This document shows positions 7,611 through 20,168 of a stretch of 26,400 nt of DNA, in pieces. The stretch is from an uncultured delta proteobacterium (GTDB lineage: Bacteria > RBG-13-61-14 > DRUE01). Within the stretch, counting starts at the first letter, position 1. Each line of letters opens with the position of its first letter. Below the pieces are notes generated by a model. The model ran no database searches and was not told the DNA's origin. It saw only the letters and a program-made list of their open reading frames with translations. The position numbers and the translations under genes are program-made. The stretch lies in contig CAIYYW010000394.1 in the NCBI GenBank assembly GCA_903930515.1, positions 1-26,400 on the forward strand, written 5' to 3'.

Positions 7611-9209
7611 ATGGGCCGAGCAGTCGGAATTGATCTGGGGACCAGTACCAGTTGCGTGTCCATCGTCAAAGACGGCAAGCCGATCGCGATCCCGGGACCG
7701 GACCAGAATTTGATCCAGGCCTCGGTGGTGAGTTTTCTGGAGGACGGCAACCGGGTGGTTGGAAACTCCGCGAAGCGAATGATGATCGAGAACGCGGAGA
7801 ACACGGTCTATTCGGCAAAGCGCCTGATCGGGCGGAAGTATTTTTCCGCGGAGGTGAAGAAGGCCCAGGCGGTTTCCTCGTATAAGATCGTTGAGGGCGA
7901 GAACCAGAGCGTGCGGATCCGGGTTCGGGATCGGGATTATTCGGTGCCGGAGGTTAGCGCGATGGTTCTGATGGAGATGAAGAAAATCGCGGAGGCCTAC
8001 CTTGGGGAGGAAGTGGATAAGGCGGTAGTGACGGTCCCGGCCAATTTCAATGACGGGCAGCGGCAGGCGACCAAGGACGGGGGCACGATCGCGGGCTTGA
8101 ATGTTCTCCGGATCATAAACGAGCCGACCGCGGCGGCGCTGGCATACGGGTACGGCAAGGGGCTGAAGCAGAAGATTGCGATCTACGATCTGGGCGGAGG
8201 CACTTTTGACATTTCGATCCTGGAAGTTGGGGAGGATGTTTACGAGGTGATCAGCACGGCCGGGGACACCTATCTGGGCGGAGACGATTTTGACGACCGA
8301 TTGATTGATTATTTCGCGGAGCGTTTTATGCGCGAGCACGACCTTGACATCCGGTCCAACCGGATGGCCCTGCAGAAGCTCAAGAACGCCTCGGAGAAGG
8401 CCAAGATCGAGTTGAGCGAGAAGCTGGAGACCCGGGTCCTGCTTCCGGGAATTATGGAGACGATGGATGGGCCGATAGATCTGGACTATACCATCAACCG
8501 CAATTATTTCGGACAGATGGTGCTGGACCTGATCCAGCGGACCTTCAAGGTCTGCGACGAGGCTCTCCAGAACGGACGGCTCACGGTCGGGGATTTGGAC
8601 GCGCTGATTTTGGTGGGCGGCCCGACCAAGAGCCCGATGGTTCAGGAAGCGGTAAAGAACTATTTCTTCAAGGACCCCGCGGGGGAGGTTGATCCGGAGT
8701 TGGTGGTTTCGATCGGCGCCGCGATCCAGGCGGCAACCCTGACCGAGCGCAAGGCCGGGGCGTTGCTGCTGGATGTTACGCCGATGAGCCTGGGGATCGC
8801 GACTGCGGGGGGCTTGATGGACACTTTGATCGAGCGGAACACCCCGATCCCGACCGAGTCCAGCCGTATCTTCACCACCACCCACGACAACCAGACCGCG
8901 GTCCGGATCAAGGTGTTCCAGGGCGAGAACAAGTTCTACGAGCAGAACGAGCCCCTGGGGGAATTCCGGCTGGCGGATATTCCGCCGGCGCCCAAGGGAG
9001 ACCCGAAGATTGAGGTTACTTTTGAGATTGACGCCAACGGGATCGTCAATGTCACGGCCAAGGACAAGGATACCGGCCGGGCGCAATCGGTTCAGCTTAC
9101 GGTTTCCGGAGGCCTGAGCAAGGACGAGATTGATAAGCTGAGGAAAGAGCATAAGGATAAGGACGAGGAAGTCGCGACATTCAAGCCAACCGCTGAATTA
9201 TCGGAATAA
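7611..9209 (+). CDS. Hsp70 family chaperone lacking the C-terminal lid
   Basis: A 532-aa DnaK-type protein. The nucleotide-binding domain starts with GIDLGTSTS (6-14), and the second phosphate loop YDLGGGTFD is near 192-200. The interdomain linker DVTPMSLGI is near 388 and a beta-sandwich substrate domain follows to about 500. Only about 30 charged residues come after it, so the helical lid of housekeeping DnaK (about 640 aa) is missing. The stop is natural and the next gene starts 13 nt later, so this does not look like a broken gene. The ribosome site AAGGAGG is strong. The gene uses G/C-ending codons more strictly than its upstream neighbours, suggesting high expression. It probably works with the downstream J protein in ATP-driven remodelling of a client; the client is unknown. 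Confidence 0.95.
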
Positions 9210-9222
9210 CGGAGGAAGGTTA

Positions 9223-9753
9223 ATGGTGGAGGAGGATTTCAAACGCCAGATCAATTCGCTGTCCAAGGTGATTGACGATCTGGATTACTATCAGATTCTG
9301 AAGGTGGACCAGATGTCCTTTGAGGAGGACATCAAGAGGGCGTATTTTGAAGAGTCCCGGATATATCATCCGGACAAGTATTACACTGATCCGCCGGAAT
9401 TTCAGCAAAAAATCACCGCTATTTTTAAGCGCGTTTGCGAGGCGTATAGGGTCCTTTCCGACCCGGAAAAGCGGCCCTTTTATACCAAGCTGATCAACGG
9501 GCCGGACCGGAAGAAATACCTCCGGTTTGATTTGAGATTGCTCAAGGCCGAGACCGAGAAGGCCGAAGATGAAGGATCGTCGCCCCTGGCCAAGAAATAC
9601 TATAAAATGGCCAAAACCGCGATCCAGAACAAGGACTTCAAGGCCGCCAAGATCAACCTCCAGCTTGCAATCAAAATGGAGTCAAAAAATCAAACCTTCC
9701 TGGATAAACTCAAGGAAGTCATTGACATCCTGGCGAGCAGGAAAGGCCTTTAA
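9223..9753 (+). CDS. J-domain (DnaJ-like) co-chaperone with helical TPR-like C-terminus
   Basis: A 176-aa protein. A J domain spans about residues 21-90, starting DYYQILKVDQ and carrying the essential HPD tripeptide at 49-51, which stimulates Hsp70 ATPase activity. The C-terminal 65 residues are helical, with a TPR-like pattern (AKKYYKMAKTAI, then AKINLQLAIKM), a possible client- or partner-binding platform. It lacks the Gly/Phe and zinc-finger regions of classical DnaJ. It starts 13 nt after the Hsp70 stop with GGAGGAAGG as ribosome site, so the two are almost certainly one operon and a dedicated chaperone pair. Confidence 0.94.
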   Translation: MVEEDFKRQINSLSKVIDDLDYYQILKVDQMSFEEDIKRAYFEESRIYHPDKYYTDPPEFQQKITAIFKRVCEAYRVLSDPEKRPFYTKLINGPDRKKYLRFDLRLLKAETEKAEDEGSSPLAKKYYKMAKTAIQNKDFKAAKINLQLAIKMESKNQTFLDKLKEVIDILASRKGL

Positions 9754-9902
9754 TTAGTATCATCCGGCCCTGCTAAAAGCGGCGTTTCCGGCTCACCTTA
9801 TCATATTGTCGTTAAAAACCAATATCTTGCCCGCTATTTTTTGGGACGAAAAATTAAATCGCGGCCCGGGATCAGAGCATCATAATAAATGGAGGCAGTA
9901 AG

Positions 9903-10574
9903 ATGAGATGTCGGGCGGTTATGGTGATGATGGCGATGGCGGTAATGATCCCGCTGATTGCTGACTCGCAAACCCCTCCGGAAAAAGGAATAGACCCTTC
10001 GCTTTATCTGACCCCGATTTCCATCTATTCCCGGATCGGCAAGAGCCTGGCGATCAGGTATCAGCCGGAATTGATCGCGATGATTGATCGGATCCAGCGC
10101 GAGATCGGCTCGGACCGGTTTCAAATTATGGATTTGGACCAATCCCCGAACGGCGGGGTCGGCTTCTGGGTGAATCCCGATGTGATGGCCCCAGACCATC
10201 GGTTCCTGGGAATCGCCGCCCGGGTCAATATCCAACTCCCGTATTTCCCGGACTCCGGCGCCGGTCGGGTCTGTGACACCCTGGACGCCTTTGGCAAGGA
10301 TCTGTTCGTCATCCTGCAAGACACCCTGGACCGGATCCCGGACAATTCAGTCCAAGGGGTGGCCGTGGTTTTGATCTATTCCAAGAGCCGTCTGGACGAT
10401 CCCAATTTTATGGAGAAGGCGGAAATCTCAATGATGTTCATCAACCGAGACGACCTGAAAAAATACAACGGCCATCAGTTCACACTCCAGACACTTTTCA
10501 ACCGCACCGACTTCTATTACTTCCAGACCCGCGACCAGATCCGGTTCTTCTTTGACCATTTCCTGAGAGGGTAA
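9903..10574 (+). CDS. Secreted or periplasmic hypothetical protein
   Basis: A 223-aa protein of unrecognised family. The first 20 residues form a Met-rich hydrophobic signal peptide, with likely cleavage near residue 22 before TPPEKG. The mature part is mixed alpha/beta with one cysteine, no repeats and no obvious catalytic motif. The start is well supported by GGAGGCA upstream. It follows the chaperone pair by 149 nt on the same strand, so co-expression is possible but not shown. Confidence 0.82.
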   Translation: MRCRAVMVMMAMAVMIPLIADSQTPPEKGIDPSLYLTPISIYSRIGKSLAIRYQPELIAMIDRIQREIGSDRFQIMDLDQSPNGGVGFWVNPDVMAPDHRFLGIAARVNIQLPYFPDSGAGRVCDTLDAFGKDLFVILQDTLDRIPDNSVQGVAVVLIYSKSRLDDPNFMEKAEISMMFINRDDLKKYNGHQFTLQTLFNRTDFYYFQTRDQIRFFFDHFLRG

Positions 10575-10613
10575 ATTTAAAACCTCCCGCGTCGCAGCTC
10601 AGTCCTTTGAGGC

Positions 10614-10642
10614 TTGCTCCGGGCGGGATGATTACATAGAAT
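10614..10642 (+). promoter_or_regulatory. Candidate promoter directly upstream of the 105-aa membrane protein
   Basis: A poor -35 (TTGCTC, 10614-10619), a 17-nt spacer and a good -10 (TAGAAT, 10637-10642) lie six bases before the ATG at 10649. No Shine-Dalgarno is present. If used, it would produce a leaderless transcript. Confidence 0.4.
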
Positions 10643-10648
10643 ATCCCT

Positions 10649-10966
10649 ATGAAGACAGAGCGGTTCTGGAGGCTGGATCAGAAATGGTTTTTGGCTTTCG
10701 GCTTTTGCTGGTTCCTGGCGATGGAGTTGACGCTCCGGCTCAAGCTGGGGGTGATCTTCTGGCTCTGCTTCGGATGGCTGATGGTTTTGGACTGGGAGGC
10801 GAAGGTATTTTTCCAATCCGGCTTCAGCAGGAACCCGTTTGAGAGAATCCTGAAAAGCCTGTATTACGCGTTTATCGTCACGCTGCTGATCTTCCTGGGA
10901 TTCACTTTTTTCAACTTCCTGCTCCGGTCTTTCAATAACAACATTTCCTTCTTTCAGCTTCCCTGA
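10649..10966 (+). CDS. Small integral membrane protein, function unknown
   Basis: A 105-aa protein rich in Phe, Trp and Leu with three likely membrane helices (about 13-28, 31-48 and 72-92). No family is recognised. There is no ribosome site; a -10-like hexamer lies six bases upstream. The 3' end overlaps the convergent DUF1648 gene by 13 bp. The strongly hydrophobic pattern and plausible promoter argue for a real gene, but independent evidence is thin. Confidence 0.62.
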   Translation: MKTERFWRLDQKWFLAFGFCWFLAMELTLRLKLGVIFWLCFGWLMVLDWEAKVFFQSGFSRNPFERILKSLYYAFIVTLLIFLGFTFFNFLLRSFNNNISFFQLP

Positions 10967-11472
10967 AGGGGCGGGTTTCCATCCGCTTCCTTCAACTCCC
11001 GGCGTTGCGCCAGGTTGATGCGGATGACGAGCAAGATGATCCCGCAGAACCCCAAGCCGAGGAGGATGAATAAGCCGGGCCCCAGCCCCTGAATTTTTCC
11101 GAGCGCGATCCTGAGGGTTTGGATTTGGAGGAACAGGAACAAAATCAAGGCCCCGATCATAGTGCAGTCCACCACCAGGTTTGATTTGGAGATCAGCCGG
11201 CTCAATGCCTGATCGCTTACGGGCTTGCGCAGTTTTTTTCTCCAATACTTCGGGTCTTGAACCAACTTGAATGAGATCAGGTAAATGAAGCAGACAAAGG
11301 CTTGCATAACCGGGAACATAACCAACGCCGGGGTTTTGGAACCGTATCGGTCCGGGAGGCCCTGTCCGTTGAAATGGACCGGCACCCGGCAGGGCAGTCG
11401 GTCCTGGTAATAAAGGCTCAAAGCCGCGGACACGGATATTAAGGCGATTACAATCAAGATCCGGTTTTTCAT
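10954..11472 (-). CDS. DUF1648 domain-containing membrane protein
   Basis: A 172-aa protein with four likely membrane helices (about 4-21, 48-68, 104-122 and 130-150). Residues 25-46 carry the DUF1648 signature of LP..VPVHFN followed by G.PDRYGSK. Members include SdpI-like immunity/signal proteins and many uncharacterised membrane proteins; this one has a single DUF1648 unit and no clear SdpI partner domain. It lies 67 nt downstream of the diadenylate cyclase gene on the same strand and may be read from the same transcript. No strong ribosome site is seen before its ATG. Confidence 0.85.
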   Translation of the reverse strand: MKNRILIVIALISVSAALSLYYQDRLPCRVPVHFNGQGLPDRYGSKTPALVMFPVMQAFVCFIYLISFKLVQDPKYWRKKLRKPVSDQALSRLISKSNLVVDCTMIGALILFLFLQIQTLRIALGKIQGLGPGLFILLGLGFCGIILLVIRINLAQRRELKEADGNPPLQGS

Positions 11473-11539
11473 CCAACAACGGTTTTAGCTTTGGAACCTT
11501 TTCAGCCTTTTGACCTTGAGGCCTTTCCACCTTTGACCC

Positions 11540-12520
11540 TCAGCTTGCGCGTTGGGGGGTTTCCTTTTCAATGGTCAGGAACACCTTGCCGTTTTTGAAG
11601 ATGCGGGCGTCACCGGTGCTTTCGGAGATCACGATGGCGATGGCATTGGTCAGGGCGGTGATCCCGGCGGCCGCGGCGTGGCGGGCGCCTAGTCCCTGGG
11701 GGAGGTTGGCGTCTTCAATGGAGGCGTTCAAGTATCTCCCGGCCGCGAGCACCACGCCGTCATCGCGGATGATGAAGGCTCCGTCCAGGGAGGAGAACTC
11801 TTTGATAGTTTCGCGGAGAGTGGGGTCCAGGATGTTCCGGTCTTCCTCCGGGTATCCCTGGAAGGGATTGAAGATCATCTGCCGGGAAAGTTGCATCACC
11901 CGCTCGGAATCCCCGAGCACGAAAATGGTTCCGAGGGGTTTTCCTTCCCGACCCTGGTTGGCGAGTTCCACCGAGATTTTGAGCAGTTCCCCGAACACCC
12001 CGGGGTGGACCGCGGCGGAGATGTTTTCGGCTTCCTTGGAACTGAGGATTTCAAACTCTTTCCCGATCTCCACGATCACCAGGGTGTCCAAGGTTTTAAA
12101 TTCCCTGACCCCGCACACACAGACGATCCGGTCCCCGAGTTCCACGATCCCCTTGCTGATCCCGCTCATCACCGCCAGCTTGATCTTGCCGATCCGGCTG
12201 AACTTGATCTCCGGGATGGTCAGCAGGGTCGGATAGAGGCTCCGGGACTGCTCCTCGGCCTCCTTGGCGCTGATCACCACCTTTAAATCTTTACGCCGGC
12301 TGAGCGTTTCCGGAATCTGAAAATCGCGCGGGTCGTCCAGGATCAGGAACAGTGATTTGGCCGCCAGCTGAGTGGCGATCCGGCCGGCCGATTCCAGGAC
12401 GGATTTATTGAACCGGGCCCGCTCCCTTTCCGCAGGATCAATCTTTTTGCGGGGCGCGGCCTTTTTCAAGGCCGCGGACGGAGTCGCCCCCGCGTTTTTT
12501 TTATCCAATTTATCCGGCAT
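11540..12520 (-). CDS. Diadenylate cyclase (DAC) domain protein with pyruvate-kinase-C-like N-terminal domain
   Basis: A 326-aa protein. The first 35 residues are basic and Lys/Ala/Pro-rich and probably disordered. Residues about 42-160 resemble the PK_C-like domain found before the DAC domain in the archaeal DacZ/CdaZ type. Residues about 195-320 form a DisA_N/DAC fold with the catalytic DGA at 246-248 and the nucleotide-binding segment GARHAAAAG at 278-286, in place of the usual GTRHR type. DAC domains join two ATP into cyclic di-AMP; residue positions suggest activity, but the altered RH motif should be tested. No membrane helix is present, unlike CdaA, and no DNA-binding part, unlike DisA. 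It lies 24 nt downstream of the REC-PilZ gene, so both are probably co-transcribed. Confidence 0.87.
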   Translation of the reverse strand: MPDKLDKKNAGATPSAALKKAAPRKKIDPAERERARFNKSVLESAGRIATQLAAKSLFLILDDPRDFQIPETLSRRKDLKVVISAKEAEEQSRSLYPTLLTIPEIKFSRIGKIKLAVMSGISKGIVELGDRIVCVCGVREFKTLDTLVIVEIGKEFEILSSKEAENISAAVHPGVFGELLKISVELANQGREGKPLGTIFVLGDSERVMQLSRQMIFNPFQGYPEEDRNILDPTLRETIKEFSSLDGAFIIRDDGVVLAAGRYLNASIEDANLPQGLGARHAAAAGITALTNAIAIVISESTGDARIFKNGKVFLTIEKETPQRAS

Positions 12521-12544
12521 TATTATTTCACCCGCAAAATCATT

Positions 12545-13255
12545 TTATACGATGGCGGCCCCTTCCGATTTTTGTCGTTCCAAATATTTATCCAGGACCT
12601 GCCCGTTCTCTTTGTTCAGGCCGAGGAATTTTATCCCGAGCAGGTATTTCCCGCGTTTCGGATCCGGCTCGGCGCGGACGATTTCTCCGTCAACCTCCTT
12701 CGTCGCGAGGTCGTTGAAAATGGGCAGCCAGAGCCGAAGGCGCTGCCCAAGCTCCATCTTCTGGTCCGACTCCACCAGAATTCCGCTCTGGGAGATATTG
12801 CGGGAAAACCCGGTAAAGGTCAGGGGAGGAGCTTCTCCTTCCACCCGGAAATTCACCGCCAGCCTCCGGTGCAGGCGCTGGGGCACCCCCAGGAATTGAG
12901 CGGCCCGGGCCAGCACGGTTTCCGGGTTGATCGGCTTGGTCAGGTAGTCGCTGCAGCCGGCCTGGAAGCAGGCGTCAATGTCTTCTTTTTTGGTAGAAGT
13001 GGACACGATGATTACGGGGATGGAACTGGTCTGTTGATCGCTCTTGAGTTCCCGGCAGACCTGATCCCCACGGAAATCGGGCATCAGGTAATCAAGCAGG
13101 ATTAAATCCGGACGCCGCTCCCGGGCGATCCGGATCGCGTTTTTGCCGGAATCCGCGGTCAGGACCAGACATCCGGCGCGTTGAAAAAAGGTTTCCTCCA
13201 ATCTCAAAAACAGCTTCACATCGTCCACCAGAAGCACGGTTTTCTTTTCAATCAT
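12545..13255 (-). CDS. Response regulator with REC and PilZ domains
   Basis: Starting at the ATG at 13255 (AAGGA upstream), the product has 236 aa; an in-frame TTG at 13285 and an ATG at 13264 are less well placed. Residues 5-120 form a CheY-like receiver with acidic Asp11/Asp12, phosphoacceptor Asp55, Ser/Thr 85-87 and Lys107. Residues about 125-225 form a PilZ domain with RxxxR (Arg127, Arg131) and NxSxxG (153-158), the two motifs that bind cyclic di-GMP. It would combine phosphorelay and c-di-GMP input, with no DNA-binding output. No histidine kinase is encoded nearby. It is followed after 24 nt by the DAC gene. Confidence 0.93.
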   Translation of the reverse strand: MIEKKTVLLVDDVKLFLRLEETFFQRAGCLVLTADSGKNAIRIARERRPDLILLDYLMPDFRGDQVCRELKSDQQTSSIPVIIVSTSTKKEDIDACFQAGCSDYLTKPINPETVLARAAQFLGVPQRLHRRLAVNFRVEGEAPPLTFTGFSRNISQSGILVESDQKMELGQRLRLWLPIFNDLATKEVDGEIVRAEPDPKRGKYLLGIKFLGLNKENGQVLDKYLERQKSEGAAIV

Positions 13256-13319
13256 TTTCACCATTCCTTGGCCGATCAGGCTCAACCGGTTCCAACCATT
13301 AGCAATCCTTGCCTGTATT

Positions 13320-13348
13320 ATTATACCGCAAAGCGGGCTGATTGGGAA
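13320..13348 (-). promoter_or_regulatory. Promoter for the REC-PilZ/DAC transcription unit
   Basis: On the minus strand a consensus TATAAT (13320-13325) is preceded, after a 17-nt spacer, by TTCCCA (13343-13348, four of six matches). It lies in the gap between the HtrA stop and the REC-PilZ start, so this pair can be transcribed independently of the upstream operon. A small CCGC/GCGG inverted repeat lies in the spacer. Confidence 0.6.
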
Positions 13349-13372
13349 ATCCGGTTCCGGCCGGGGTTCCGA

Positions 13373-14788
13373 TCAAAGAACCCGGAAGGCGTAATAGCCG
13401 ATATATTTTTCACGCTGATACTGGATCCGGACCAGGTCGCCGGTTTTCAGTTTGGCCACCAGATCGTTGAAGCTTTTGGCGTTGCCGATTTCGGTCCCGT
13501 TGACTTCAATGATCAGGTCATTGGGTACCAGGATGTCCGCCAGGGGGCTTTGATCCGAAACCGACACCACCAGGGATCCCTTGGAAGTGTCATAATTGAG
13601 CGCCAAGGCTTTCTGCGGGGTCAGGTCGGTGACTTTTACCCCGATGATATTGCCCGGTTTCTGAACCGCGGTCTTGCTGACCTTCTCTGGTTCCGGCCTC
13701 ATCTCCAGGGCGATGGCTCGCTCAATGACCTGGCCGGAGCGGAAGGTTTTAAAACCCACCTTGGACCCGGGTGCGAAGCCGGAGATCAGGCCGCGGAGTT
13801 GACTCTCGTTTTCCGCGGGCTTGCCCCCCACTTCCAGGATGATGTCTCCTTTTTCCAAGCCGCCTTTGTCCGCGGGGCTGTCCTTGGAAACCTGGGTGAT
13901 CAGTACCCCTTTGGTTTCCTTCAGCCCGAAGCTCTCGGCCAGTTCCGGAGTCAAGTCCTGGATATTAACCCCCAGCCAGGAGCGGACCACTTTTCCGGTT
14001 TCCTTCAATTCCGGCAGGAGGGCCTTGACCAGCTTGATCGGGATTGAGAACCCCAGCCCGACATTCCCCATTGAGGGCGAGATGATGATTGAGTTGATCC
14101 CGACCACTTCCCCGCGCATATTCACCAGCGGGCCTCCGGAATTGCCCGGGTTGATGGACGCGTCGGTCTGGAGAAAATCGTCATAAGGACCGCCCAGATG
14201 GCGGGCCCGGGCGCTGACGATGCCGGCGGTGACCGTGTGGGGGAACTGGAAGGGGCTTCCGATCGCCATCACCCAGTCTCCGGCCACGACCTGGTCGGAG
14301 TCTCCCAGCACCACGGTGGGAAGGTTCTTGGCCTCAATCTTGATCAGGGCGATGTCCACCTTTTCGTCCGAGCCCACTTTCCTGGCGTCATATCTTTTCT
14401 TGTCCTTGTCGCCGATCTCCACCTTGATCACCTCCGCCCCTTCCACCACATGGTTGTTGGTGAGGATGTATCCGTCCGGGGTGAGGATGAAGCCGGAGCC
14501 CATCCCTTTTTCCTTGTGCGGGCCGGGTCCGAAGAAGAAGAAAAACTGCCCCGGCTCGAACTGGGAGGGATTGAAGGTCCGGGTGGTATAAACCGTGACC
14601 ACGGCCGGAATAACTTTATCCGCGATCGGGGCGAAGCTGGGAGGGGAGTTAAAGACCACGGCCGGCTCTTTCGCGGCTTCCTGCCAGAAGACCCTGGGGC
14701 CCTGCGCCAGGGCTATGGATACCAAGAGAATACCGATTGCCGACAGAACCAGCAGGAACCCGTTTTGGGATATGCTTCTTCCCTTCAT
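13373..14788 (-). CDS. htrA: HtrA/DegP-type trypsin-like serine protease with two PDZ domains
   Basis: A 471-aa periplasmic or membrane-anchored quality-control protease. An N-terminal hydrophobic segment (about 10-30) is a signal peptide or anchor. The protease domain has the triad His113 (NNHVVEG), Asp145 (VDIALIK) and Ser217 (GNSGGP). A Phe-rich loop (FFFFF near 82-86) lies where the regulatory LA loop is found. Two PDZ domains follow, at about 250-345 and 370-465. Full length for DegP/DegQ-type enzymes. The start has AAAGGAGAT upstream. It is the last gene of the tight unit beginning with GldA, only 2 nt after DUF1844, suggesting a role in envelope maintenance tied to that cluster. Confidence 0.95.
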   Translation of the reverse strand: MKGRSISQNGFLLVLSAIGILLVSIALAQGPRVFWQEAAKEPAVVFNSPPSFAPIADKVIPAVVTVYTTRTFNPSQFEPGQFFFFFGPGPHKEKGMGSGFILTPDGYILTNNHVVEGAEVIKVEIGDKDKKRYDARKVGSDEKVDIALIKIEAKNLPTVVLGDSDQVVAGDWVMAIGSPFQFPHTVTAGIVSARARHLGGPYDDFLQTDASINPGNSGGPLVNMRGEVVGINSIIISPSMGNVGLGFSIPIKLVKALLPELKETGKVVRSWLGVNIQDLTPELAESFGLKETKGVLITQVSKDSPADKGGLEKGDIILEVGGKPAENESQLRGLISGFAPGSKVGFKTFRSGQVIERAIALEMRPEPEKVSKTAVQKPGNIIGVKVTDLTPQKALALNYDTSKGSLVVSVSDQSPLADILVPNDLIIEVNGTEIGNAKSFNDLVAKLKTGDLVRIQYQREKYIGYYAFRVL

Positions 14789-15530: not shown

Positions 15531-16928
15531 TCATTCTTTTTTAGACAGAAACACGCCGGGGTCCGGCGGTATTTTTCCCGCCAGATCAAAATTAAACCAG
15601 ATCAACTGGTCCGGCCCCGGGAGATAAGCATAGCATTTTGCCTTACCCGCCTCCCAGTTCCCGACCCAGACTTCCAGAAATAATTGACCGCCGCTGTAAA
15701 ACCTGAGCTTCGCCCGGGGCGGCTGAAGACCGTATCTCTCAAAATTGATCGGCCGCTCGGTTAGATACCCCAGATAGTCGCTGATCACAAACGGCTCGGT
15801 CACCCAATAGGTCTTGCGAGCCTCGAATTTCTTTTCCCGGTCCCCCCCGACGGCCCAGAAACCTTGATCCTGCTTTACCAGCTTAAAGTCTCTCCCGTCG
15901 GCGAAGCTGATTTCAATCTGATCCATTTTTACCAGATCGTTTTCCAAAAGCAGCTTATGAGTCCTGAAATCGCTTCCGAGTATTTCCAGGATCGGCGGCT
16001 TCTGGAATCCCAGGAGTTTAAATCTTTTTTCCTGCATCAGGTAGATCAGGCCGTCTCTTTCATTACCCACCAGGACTTTTTCCGTATGGTCGGAATAGGT
16101 GATTTCAAAATAGGCGCGGGGCGGATCCAAACCCCATTGCTTAAGCTCTTTCGGGTCCAGGTCCTGCATCTTGTCCGCGATCGCGGCCCCTCCCATCCAG
16201 GCCAGGATAGCCTCCACCTGACCGCCGTCATTGTGGCTGCCGGAGGGATCGAGCGCAAGCCATTCCGGCCCCTGGCTGGTGCTTTGCTTGACCACGGTCC
16301 TGGTCTCGGGGACCAAAAGTTTTTTTCTCAATTCCGGATCCTTAACCACGATTTTAAATTCCCGGGCCAGGTCGGCCTGGATCCCGCCCAGCCTGCGGAA
16401 GCGCAGTTCCTGGAAGCCCATCACGATAAACATCCGGATTTTGGGCTCGGTCAGAAAAATCTCCGGCTCGTCCTCATACCAGGCATAGAGGGCGTTGTAT
16501 GCCGGGTTCACCCCTCCGATCCGGAGGATTTTTTTCTCCGTCTGGTTTTTAAATTCAAAAGTCAGGGTGGCCAGGGGCGGATTCAGGCCGTATTGAGAAA
16601 GGTTTTCCTTCTCGGCCTGGATCACAATCCTTTTTCTGGTCAACTGGGGAAGGACCTCCGCCAACCCTCCGAAGAAAAGGATATCCGGGATATCCTTTTC
16701 CGGCTTTTCGATCAGCCACATCCCGTCTTGGTTCCGGCGGAACCGGACCGTTCCTTTGGCATTTTTCAGTTCAAAGGCTTGTGCCTGATCCAGATCAATC
16801 ACCTGCGAATTGACCGCGGTTTCCGTCCGGAGTCGGGGGATCTGCTCCGGTTTCTTCCAGAAAAAGGCAAGATATGACAGAACCGCGATCGCAGCCAAGC
16901 CGGCCGCGACCCCCCCCCACCGCTTCAT
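15531..16928 (-). CDS. DUF4340 domain-containing protein
   Basis: A 465-aa protein with one N-terminal membrane anchor (about 6-24) and a long extracytoplasmic part. DUF4340 is recognised from its repeated beta units, for example DLDQAQAFELKNAKG with WLIEKP, and later YGLNPPLATLTFEFK and WGLDPPRAYFEI, where the recurring YGL.PP/WGL.PP motif appears at least three times (the last is YGLQPPRAKL). Proteins of this family are regularly encoded beside GldG-type ABC components. It starts 1 nt after the GldG stop with GGAGGAGG as ribosome site. Function is unknown; a periplasmic accessory role is inferred from location and anchor. Confidence 0.92.
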   Translation of the reverse strand: MKRWGGVAAGLAAIAVLSYLAFFWKKPEQIPRLRTETAVNSQVIDLDQAQAFELKNAKGTVRFRRNQDGMWLIEKPEKDIPDILFFGGLAEVLPQLTRKRIVIQAEKENLSQYGLNPPLATLTFEFKNQTEKKILRIGGVNPAYNALYAWYEDEPEIFLTEPKIRMFIVMGFQELRFRRLGGIQADLAREFKIVVKDPELRKKLLVPETRTVVKQSTSQGPEWLALDPSGSHNDGGQVEAILAWMGGAAIADKMQDLDPKELKQWGLDPPRAYFEITYSDHTEKVLVGNERDGLIYLMQEKRFKLLGFQKPPILEILGSDFRTHKLLLENDLVKMDQIEISFADGRDFKLVKQDQGFWAVGGDREKKFEARKTYWVTEPFVISDYLGYLTERPINFERYGLQPPRAKLRFYSGGQLFLEVWVGNWEAGKAKCYAYLPGPDQLIWFNFDLAGKIPPDPGVFLSKKE

Positions 16929-16929
16929 T

Positions 16930-18474
16930 CTATTTCCTCCTCCACCAGAGCGCCAGGCCGATCACGCAGAGTATTTCCGGAATGATCAGCACCGAACTGT
17001 AGAAGATAATCCGGGTCTGCCCGGCAGTGATAAAAATCCGGCTGGGCTTGCGGGTATGGGGCACGATAAACGCCTGCGACTGCTCGCCCGCGGCCCAGTT
17101 GAACAGGTTGATCGCCAGTAGATAATTGGAATAAACATCCAGGGCCAGGTTGCGCATAAAAAAGGTGCTGCCCACCACCGCAATCCGGATCTGGGCGCCT
17201 TTAAAGTTTTCCTCCCAGGCCTGCGGCTGAATCCTCTCCTGGTAGCTGGCCGCCAGCAACAACGGCCCTTTGTGGTCCGCCGGGTCCTGGCGCGCGCGTC
17301 CGTATTTAAACAGGGTTTCCAGGTCGGTCTCCTCATAGCTGGTGGCGGAACTGTAAACCAGGGGGGTCCATTTCCCGGGCCGCTCCGCTCCGCCCATGAT
17401 TTTCAGCGGCCGGACCCGGGGAAAGGCCGCCAGTTTTCCTTTCAAGGTCTTAGTGATCTCGGATTGTTGGTCAAAATTGTTCGCCACCGGAGCCAGACCC
17501 ATCGCGTCCATCCCGACCAGGTATTGCACCTGGTCAATCACGATTCCGGGCAAAGGCTCGATCCCGTATCCGATCAACATATTTTCCAGGTTGCTGAACA
17601 CGCCGGGGTCCAAAAGGAATACCGCGTCGCCGCCTTTGCCCAGGTAATGATCAATCGCCTCCACTTCCCCCGGCTGGTAAGGCATCCGGGGGCCGGCGAT
17701 CACGATCAGGCACGCCTCCGGCGGGATTCCCTGGCTGGTAATCTGGAGTTTTTTTACCTGGAAGTTCTCGTCTTCCAGAAACTTCTTGAACATAGACAAG
17801 CCGCCTTTATCTTCCGTCTCCGGGTCGGCCTCGCCATGGCCGGTGATGAAATAAATCACCCAGCTGGTTTTGCGGGACACCCGGAGCAGGGAGTTGGTGA
17901 TCCGGTCTTCCTGGGGCTCGGTGATCCGGGTTTGCTGTCCCTGGTAATCAAAAACGATCGTGCCGTAAGTATTGATCCCTTTGGCCTCGGCCAGCTCCGG
18001 GTGTCGGTCCGGGTCAATAATCTCCAGCTTGACCTTCTTGCTCTCGCCCTGGTAAAGCTTGAGCAATTGTCGGCCCTGGTCAAATCCCTCGGACGGGAAA
18101 TAAGCCGTGATCTTGACTTCGCCCGGAAGGTTCTTGAGGATTTTCTTGGTCGGCTCGGACAGGGCGAACAGCCGGTCCCGGGTCACATCCATCATCAGGT
18201 CGCGCTGATAACTGATCAGGCCGATCAGGAACACGATCACGGCCAGGATCATCATTTGCAGGATCGCCCCGCTGTAGGCCCGGCCGGCGCGCTTGCGGAA
18301 ATAGTCCAGGAACCCGGCCAGGTTGCTGAGCAGGCCGATCAGGACCAGGCCTCCCCCGACCACCAGATGGGCGTTGATAAAAAGATTGGTCTTCTGCCCG
18401 ATTAACAGGGCCAAGAACCCGATCCCCAAAACCACCAGTCCGATCAAACCCAGGATCTGCGTAAACTTCTTCAT
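16930..18474 (-). CDS. gldG: GldG family ABC transporter auxiliary protein
   Basis: A 514-aa membrane protein. Three N-terminal helices (about 7-26, 34-56 and 69-88) are followed by a large extracytoplasmic domain and one C-terminal helix (about 488-509). The sequence after the third helix (SYQRDLMMDVTRDRLFALS) and the motif ITGHGE near residue 215 are hallmarks of the GldG/uncharacterised ABC auxiliary domain, which has a Rossmann-like fold. GldG takes part in gliding motility in Bacteroidetes, but homologues are widespread in non-gliding bacteria, so the motility name should not be read as function. It sits between the permease (13 nt) and DUF4340 (1 nt) genes. Confidence 0.93.
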   Translation of the reverse strand: MKKFTQILGLIGLVVLGIGFLALLIGQKTNLFINAHLVVGGGLVLIGLLSNLAGFLDYFRKRAGRAYSGAILQMMILAVIVFLIGLISYQRDLMMDVTRDRLFALSEPTKKILKNLPGEVKITAYFPSEGFDQGRQLLKLYQGESKKVKLEIIDPDRHPELAEAKGINTYGTIVFDYQGQQTRITEPQEDRITNSLLRVSRKTSWVIYFITGHGEADPETEDKGGLSMFKKFLEDENFQVKKLQITSQGIPPEACLIVIAGPRMPYQPGEVEAIDHYLGKGGDAVFLLDPGVFSNLENMLIGYGIEPLPGIVIDQVQYLVGMDAMGLAPVANNFDQQSEITKTLKGKLAAFPRVRPLKIMGGAERPGKWTPLVYSSATSYEETDLETLFKYGRARQDPADHKGPLLLAASYQERIQPQAWEENFKGAQIRIAVVGSTFFMRNLALDVYSNYLLAINLFNWAAGEQSQAFIVPHTRKPSRIFITAGQTRIIFYSSVLIIPEILCVIGLALWWRRK

Positions 18475-18487
18475 CGCTTTCCCTCGC

Positions 18488-19291
18488 TTAACTCCATCGG
18501 GCGCTTTCCGCGTTTATCCTCGAAGCGAACAAAAAGAAAATAATGATCAAGAGGAAAAATACCGGGTCGGTGAGCTGGATCCGGCCGGCCACGATATGGC
18601 TGTAATGCTCGAACAGGGACAACTGCCGGAGCAACTCCCCCAGGTCCAACTGGCGGGAAAATATGGAGACCACTCCCACGGACCGGGCCGCCAGCCCGAC
18701 GGAAAAAAACAACAGCCCAATTACCGCGCACACGAAAAAGGCGATGATCTGGTTCTCGGTTAAAGAGGACGCGAAAATTCCGATTGCGGCCAGACTGAAG
18801 GCGACCAGGAACAGCCCCAGGTATCCGGACAACACCGTGCCGAGATCGGGTTCGGAACCGTAATACAGGATCAGGCTCATATAAACCCCGACCGGGATCA
18901 GCATCAGGAACAGGAGCACCACCGAGGCCAGGTATTTCCCGAGCACCACCTGTCCCATCCGGATCGGCGCCGTAAGCAGCAACTCCTCGGTCTTCAGCTT
19001 CTTCTCCTCGGAAAACAGCCGCATGGTGACCCCGGGGACCAGGATGATCAGGAACAGGCTGAGGTTCTTGTAGAGCGGCCCCATAATGTCATCCGCAATG
19101 GTCCATTCCCGCATAATCTGGCCCTTGACCATATACCCGGACACAATGTTGGTTATGCGCAGAAAATAATTAAGCAGTTGGTAAAACAGCCAGCCGCTGA
19201 TCGCGGTGAACCCGGTCAAAACCACATAGGCCACCGGGGATAAAAAGTATCCCTTTAACTCCTTCCAGAAAATCGCGCCGATCACTCGCAT
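18488..19291 (-). CDS. gldF: ABC-2 type permease (GldF family)
   Basis: A 267-aa integral membrane protein with about six helices, the usual ABC-2/GldF length and topology. The N-terminus IFWKELKGYFLSPVAYVV and the segment MRLFSEEKKLKTEELLLTAPI are typical of this permease class (an amphipathic region followed by a cytoplasmic E-rich loop). It overlaps the ATPase gene by 10 nt and would form the membrane channel energised by it. The ribosome site GGAGAAG lies within the upstream coding sequence. The transported substrate is unknown. Confidence 0.94.
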   Translation of the reverse strand: MRVIGAIFWKELKGYFLSPVAYVVLTGFTAISGWLFYQLLNYFLRITNIVSGYMVKGQIMREWTIADDIMGPLYKNLSLFLIILVPGVTMRLFSEEKKLKTEELLLTAPIRMGQVVLGKYLASVVLLFLMLIPVGVYMSLILYYGSEPDLGTVLSGYLGLFLVAFSLAAIGIFASSLTENQIIAFFVCAVIGLLFFSVGLAARSVGVVSIFSRQLDLGELLRQLSLFEHYSHIVAGRIQLTDPVFFLLIIIFFLFASRINAESARWS

Positions 19292-20013
19292 CGCTTCTTC
19301 TCCAATTCCTCAGCCCCGATCAATTTTAAAAAGGCCTGCTCCAGATCCTGTCCGCGGGTGAACTCCTCCAGCCTGGCGTCCGCGGCGATCCGTCCCTGGT
19401 GAATGACGATCACCCGCTCGCAGGTCAGGGCCACTTCCGGCAGGATGTGGGTGCTCAGGATGATGGTATGAGACCCGGCCAGGCTCTTGATCAGCGACCG
19501 GATCTCCGCGTTCTGTTTCGGGTCCAGACCGATGGTGGGCTCGTCCAGGACCAGCAGTTCCGGGTTATGGATCAAGGCTTGGGCCAACCCCACCCTCTGG
19601 CGGAATCCCTTGGAGAGATGACCGATCATCCGGTCAATGACCTCATCCAGCGAGCAGGTATGCGCCACCCGCTCAATCCCCTCCCGGGCCTGCTTCCGGT
19701 CCAGCCCGCGCAGCCTCCCGACAAAACCCAGGTACGACCGAACCGTCATCTCATTATAAAGCGGCGGATGCTCCGGAAGATAGCCGATCTTCTTCCGAAC
19801 TTCCATTGACCGGCTCTCCACATCGAACCCCGCGATCCTCGCCTTCCCGGATGTGGCCGGCATATAGCAGACCAGGATCCGCATAGTGGTAGTCTTGCCC
19901 GAGCCGTTGGGTCCCAGGAACCCCACAATCTCGCCCTTGCCGATCTTGAAGGAGATGTCTTCTATCCCCCGAACCTCGCCGTAGTATTTGGTCAAATGTT
20001 CAACTTCTATCAT
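19282..20013 (-). CDS. gldA: ABC transporter ATP-binding protein (GldA-like)
   Basis: The ATG at 20013 (MIEVEHLTKYYG) is chosen because AAAGGAG precedes it at good spacing and the family begins here; the product has 243 aa. An in-frame upstream extension to 20091 runs through a leader hairpin and lacks family similarity. Walker A GPNGSGKTTT, signature LSKGFRQRVG, Walker B LLVLDEP with GLDP, and the H-loop LSTHI are intact. The C-terminal 50 residues are those of multidrug/GldA-type ATPases. It heads the eight-gene unit reaching to HtrA. Confidence 0.95.
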   Translation of the reverse strand: MIEVEHLTKYYGEVRGIEDISFKIGKGEIVGFLGPNGSGKTTTMRILVCYMPATSGKARIAGFDVESRSMEVRKKIGYLPEHPPLYNEMTVRSYLGFVGRLRGLDRKQAREGIERVAHTCSLDEVIDRMIGHLSKGFRQRVGLAQALIHNPELLVLDEPTIGLDPKQNAEIRSLIKSLAGSHTIILSTHILPEVALTCERVIVIHQGRIAADARLEEFTRGQDLEQAFLKLIGAEELEKKRCE

Positions 20014-20034
20014 TCCCCCGACTCCTTTAAGGAA

Positions 20035-20053
20035 GGGGGCAAGCCCTGCCCCC
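20035..20053 (-). promoter_or_regulatory. Hairpin in the gldA leader
   Basis: Perfect arms GGGGGCA and TGCCCCC enclose a five-base loop about 20 nt before the gldA start codon. Its position just ahead of the AAAGGAG site means it could affect translation or transcript stability. It has no T-tract and might equally be another hairpin repeat. The 155-nt gap it sits in shows no convincing promoter. Confidence 0.4.
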
Positions 20054-20168
20054 AGATTCTCTAAAAATTCTCCTCGCTTAGACCATTCCACGGTCCCTTT
20101 GGTTTCCTTTTATCGGCCGGACCGGAAATTAAACGGCCCAGCCTTGGGTATCCCCCGGCTGCCGCCAA

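Follow-up and report, generated by a model that had tools for sequence, protein, structure and literature searches.

DacZ of Haloferax volcanii and CdaZ-DacY of Methanocaldococcus jannaschii combine an N-terminal domain resembling the C-terminal domain of pyruvate kinase (PK_C) with a C-terminal diadenylate cyclase (DAC) domain that carries the motifs DGA and RH. The H. volcanii enzyme is the only DAC of its genome, and its gene shares an operon with mscS2 (PMC6741144). Bacterial proteins with a PK_C-like fold have already been reported within the DacZ branch (Braun et al., 2019; PMC6741144). Such bacterial DacZ_P-DAC proteins (PF21755 plus PF02457), found in Thermodesulfobacteriota, Nitrospinota and Planctomycetota, have the same layout as the cyclase described here and are 36-58% identical to it; their genes adjoin those of ClpB, HtrA, HtpX, DnaJ, a sigma factor or SpoU, and no REC-PilZ gene is found beside them. 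REC-PilZ response regulators, on the other hand, join a receiver to a PilZ domain with the motifs RxxxR and D/NxSxxG. The locus described here brings both together: its host is, in contrast to H. volcanii and M. jannaschii, a bacterium, and its DacZ gene forms an operon-like pair with a REC-PilZ gene, which distinguishes the latter from other REC-PilZ response regulators as well. The cyclase type is already known, while the gene pairing is what is new. A literature search, whose coverage was largely without subscription journals, returned no report of a DacZ and PilZ pairing and no account of a diadenylate cyclase under the control of a c-di-GMP receptor.

The window, i.e., the whole analysed stretch of 26,400 nucleotides, contains the following features around the pair:

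10954-11472, minus strand: DUF1648 membrane protein, 67 nt downstream of DacZ and on the same strand
11540-12520, minus strand: DacZ-type diadenylate cyclase, 326 aa (Pfam, NCBIfam, AlphaFold model, fold matches)
12521-12544, minus strand: intergenic gap of 24 nt between the REC-PilZ stop and the DacZ start (sequence)
12545-13255, minus strand: REC-PilZ response regulator, 236 aa (Pfam; 51% identical orthologue with the same motifs in genome G002)
13320-13348, minus strand: promoter-like TTCCCA-17-TATAAT upstream of REC-PilZ (score 10/12)
13373-14788, minus strand: HtrA/Deg-type serine protease with two PDZ domains (Pfam Trypsin_2, PDZ)

REC-PilZ and DacZ are arranged head to tail. Both reading frames are intact: DacZ runs from ATG 12520 to a stop at 11540, while REC-PilZ ends with a stop at 12547-12545 and has its best start at ATG 13255, with AAGGA about 9 nt upstream. 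The coordinates and the 24-nt spacing of the first-pass annotation are correct. The TATAAT which it had reported at 13320 is a plausible promoter-like site but a weak match, since chance alone would give 0.9 sites scoring 10/12 in the 2.5 kb scanned; the corresponding intergenic region of the congener G001 has a TATAAT at almost the same position. The HtrA gene, about 117 nt upstream of REC-PilZ on the same strand, is context outside the minimal pair. The DUF1648 gene was rejected as an operon member, as it has no match in G001 or G002. Downstream of DacZ, DnaK/DnaJ genes lie in convergent orientation. No conserved RNA element was detected in the window at gathering score. Upstream of the DUF1844-HtrA genes, a Gld-like ABC transporter set (ATPase, permease, GldG-like and a further protein) occupies positions 15531-20091, and a similar set lies downstream of DacZ in genome G033 (L036:7726-11039).

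In the cyclase, Pfam recognises DacZ_P in the N-terminal part (1.5e-15) and DAC in the C-terminal part (3.4e-22). Among the NCBIfam models, DacZ (NF041371) gave 1.3e-49, compared to 9e-11 for CdaA and 0.005 for DisA. With 169 bits against the curated cut-off of 430 bits, the protein is homologous to, yet outside, the narrow haloarchaeal equivalog that NF041371 describes. The AlphaFold model, built on an alignment of 45 sequences, has a mean pLDDT of 89.5; in it, the N-terminal part (residues 29-158) resembles in fold the pyruvate kinase C-terminal domain (Z 14.2, 125 aligned residues, 3.3 Å), while residues 163-320 represent the DAC fold shared with DisA, CdaA/DacA and CdaS (Z 13-16). Unlike CdaA, the protein lacks N-terminal transmembrane helices, and this region is predicted to be alpha/beta and PK_C-like instead. 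A DAC-domain tree, with low support at many of its forks, gathers 29 CdaA rows into a group of their own, distinct from the DacZ set; a 30th CdaA row (L019) is probably a wrongly picked reading frame. Within the DacZ set, the archaeal DacZ sits at the end of a long branch, which leaves its exact position unsure. The window cyclase groups with DacZ and not with CdaA. It is thus of the DacZ type, and the first-pass classification as a DacZ-type DAC protein with a PK_C-like N-terminal domain was right, given that Pfam, NCBIfam and the structural match agree. The profile search bore this out for DAC and DacZ_P, both of which are present in 45 of 45 relatives; Pfam PK_C itself, however, is not matched directly by the window protein, only by 14 of these 45. 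The same annotation had called the layout archaeal in kind and distinct from the CdaA and DisA classes. While the latter is true, the archaeal emphasis was overstated: our scan of bacterial and archaeal genomes delivered at least 560 confirmed relatives, more than 500 of them bacterial, and the domain is in Pfam. The 80 relatives kept of these at least 560 belong mostly to the Thermodesulfobacteriota/'Deltaproteobacteria', Nitrospinota and Planctomycetota. No plasmid with DNA similarity to the window was found, and a plasmid protein search matched only two Haladaptatus DacZ genes. Other DAC proteins were met as well: G002 encodes an 854-aa ADP-ribosylglycohydrolase fusion with a divergent C-terminal DAC-like domain (L039:5237-7801, minus strand), and G049 a DACND-DACNH-DAC protein of another DAC class (L040:4976-6409, plus strand).

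In the host genome, which is 93% complete, this DacZ is the only DAC detected. Two further features of the c-di-AMP circuit were found outside the window:

L131:920-1049, minus strand: c-di-AMP riboswitch before a KimA-type gene, host genome
L134:1622-1751, minus strand: c-di-AMP riboswitch before a KimA-type gene, congener G001

The riboswitch of the host scores 90 bits and is followed after about 50 nt by an APC-type permease gene, which is cut by the contig end. G001 shows the same arrangement, and its permease, read over 523 residues up to the contig end, matches the potassium transporter KimA (6s3k, 8e-63). The riboswitch search gave no match in G002. A 7TM-HD domain, typical of PgpH phosphodiesterases, occurs once in each of the three genomes of the phylum, and a NrnA-like DHH-DHHA1 protein was also found. 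Judged by the established roles of these families, the most likely function of DacZ is that of an active synthase serving potassium homeostasis. It would be the main, and probably the only, c-di-AMP synthase of this genome. Its DAC domain would condense two ATP; the probable role of the PK_C-like domain at the N-terminus is to sense a metabolite or ion or to mediate assembly. The c-di-AMP formed would feed a potassium and osmotic circuit by binding the riboswitch that controls the KimA-type potassium importer, and would probably be degraded by the PgpH-like phosphodiesterase. This cyclase and potassium part of the model is likely whether or not REC-PilZ regulates DacZ.

The partner gene encodes a Response_reg domain (1e-25) followed by a PilZ domain (1.9e-15). 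The receiver possesses the acidic pair D11/D12, the phospho-acceptor D55 and K107, and the PilZ domain carries RxxxR as R127LHRR131 and D/NxSxxG as N153ISQSG158. The protein thus has the motifs of a REC-domain response regulator as well as those of a PilZ c-di-GMP receptor, judged from its sequence, and should bind c-di-GMP. All these residues are kept in the G002 orthologue, which is 51% identical, and the motifs which the first-pass annotation had called intact are indeed complete. Two GGDEF proteins of the genome could supply c-di-GMP. Pfam recognised no DNA-binding or enzymatic output domain besides PilZ; therefore, REC-PilZ probably works via a partner. The most economical candidate is the neighbouring cyclase, with phosphorylation and c-di-GMP as inputs.

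The first-pass annotation had also proposed a survey of gene adjacency in related genomes. The host's phylum is known from three genomes in collections: the host, G001 of the same genus and G002, which shares the order but not the family. In G002, REC-PilZ is followed after 40 nt by DacZ, while the flanks are quite different; the pair is intact there without HtrA, DUF1844 or the downstream gene at its side. In G001, the order DUF1844, HtrA, REC-PilZ is present, and the start of REC-PilZ is 88% identical to that of the window over 33 residues, before the contig ends inside this gene. Loss of DacZ in G001 was considered, but while DacZ itself was not seen there, the contig end most likely explains this. 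Thus, the pairing is present in both genomes of the phylum with a detectable DacZ, which represent two families, and the third is consistent with it up to the contig end. Among the 79 other named DacZ loci, in contrast, no REC-PilZ or PilZ neighbour was found in the fetched flanks, some of which were short. The pair is conserved in the phylum, was held together while its surroundings changed, and is a lineage-specific addition, as judged from two full cases and one truncated case in a tiny phylum. Since REC-PilZ is absent at the 79 other loci, DacZ in general does not need it.

Several explanations could be envisioned for this arrangement. Membership in one operon does not imply that adjacent genes regulate each other, and it is quite possible that DacZ and REC-PilZ are ordinary neighbours: a housekeeping synthase and an independent c-di-GMP effector that share a promoter, without any regulation of the cyclase. 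This idea fits the lack of REC-PilZ at all other named DacZ loci. It likewise fits the dozens of REC proteins across the three phylum genomes and a separate group of REC-PilZ paralogues in G001 and G002 that is located away from any DAC. However, mere neighbourhood does not sit well with G002, where REC-PilZ and DacZ have stayed together with none of HtrA, DUF1844 or the downstream gene beside them.

In a second explanation, the main partners of DacZ would be stress and proteostasis genes, HtrA in the window and ClpB, HtpX or DnaK/J elsewhere, and c-di-AMP would be connected with envelope or heat stress instead of c-di-GMP. The underlying observation is wide:

L043-L122 and window 7611-14788: DacZ beside protein-quality-control genes, 44 of 85 loci

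In these 44 loci, which represent several phyla and are counted uncorrected for kinship, ClpB, HtpX, HtrA, DnaK or DnaJ genes lie within about 6.5 kb of DacZ, many of them directly adjacent. ClpB is often found 10-20 nt downstream of DacZ in Syntrophales. HtrA directly adjoins DacZ in Nitrospinota, Thermosulfurimonas, Tectomicrobia and others, and lies within about 1.1 kb of it at eight loci besides the window. In G033, the order is ClpB-DnaK-DnaJ-DacZ; DacZ_P surveys in the phyla of G033 and G034, each represented by one genome, yielded nothing further. A parallel is given by Bacillus, where the DisA gene is part of the clpC operon. However, the locus set is dominated by relatives within the Syntrophales, HtrA does not adjoin the pair in G002, and a kept gene order may reflect hitchhiking. 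We thus regard stress genes as the main partners only tentatively, and this explanation is compatible with the others.

The boldest explanation is that REC-PilZ binds DacZ as a dedicated regulatory subunit, so that a kinase signal and c-di-GMP together set the level of c-di-AMP. The tight and conserved adjacency, the intact phospho-acceptor and c-di-GMP motifs, and a regulator without Pfam DNA-binding or enzymatic output, which probably acts on a partner, all point in this direction. Genome G026 adds an independent case, in which about 100 nt separate a receiver gene from a short DacZ-like DAC downstream of it. However, this arrangement was not found in two genomes of the same family, and few sequences are available for a co-evolution analysis. 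Direct control is rather unlikely in our view, and an indirect or expression-level coupling takes up what probability remains beside direct control and mere neighbourhood. Co-transcription is the safer form of coupling, direct protein contact the bolder one. As for G026 itself, the receiver there stands alone and the short DAC is without an N-terminal domain (L038:5707-6871, plus strand); the genome comprises two more DACs.

A last point concerns the third residue of the canonical RHR motif, which the window DacZ lacks in contrast to the other DAC classes. The motifs D246-G-A and R280-H are present, and none of the 45 aligned relatives deviates from DGA or RH, but RH stands within GARHAAA, which the first-pass annotation had noted as a possible anomaly. 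Arginine follows RH in 27 of 30 CdaA-type rows. In the DacZ set, however, it does so in only about 10 of 85 loci, with I, M, V, A, S, E and H also occurring, a share that is biased as one of two scan patterns fixed A, V or M at this site; the commonest residue is nevertheless I, outside that pattern. The haloarchaeal DacZ of Haladaptatus has RHH. Since the position varies across DacZ proteins, GARHAAA is a feature of the class and not a lesion. Thus, although arginine is the rule in CdaA-type loci, a degenerate cyclase is very improbable and was rejected, with arginine in the minority among DacZ loci, the Haloferax enzyme active (PMC6741144), and this DacZ the sole detected DAC of a genome with riboswitch and phosphodiesterase.

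Taken together, we consider it likely that DacZ is the c-di-AMP synthase of a potassium circuit, probably co-transcribed in this phylum behind REC-PilZ, which may modulate the cyclase. Such control is plausible from the motifs and the gene order: phosphorylation by a histidine kinase and binding of c-di-GMP may modulate the level or activity of the cyclase. If direct gating were true, it would hard-wire both cyclic dinucleotide networks to each other and to potassium homeostasis. The REC-PilZ/DacZ pair thus offers a compact system in which a possible cross-talk of c-di-GMP with c-di-AMP can be tested, while the proximity of DacZ to ClpB, HtrA and DnaK/J in several phyla provides a broader clue to the stimulus of bacterial DacZ.
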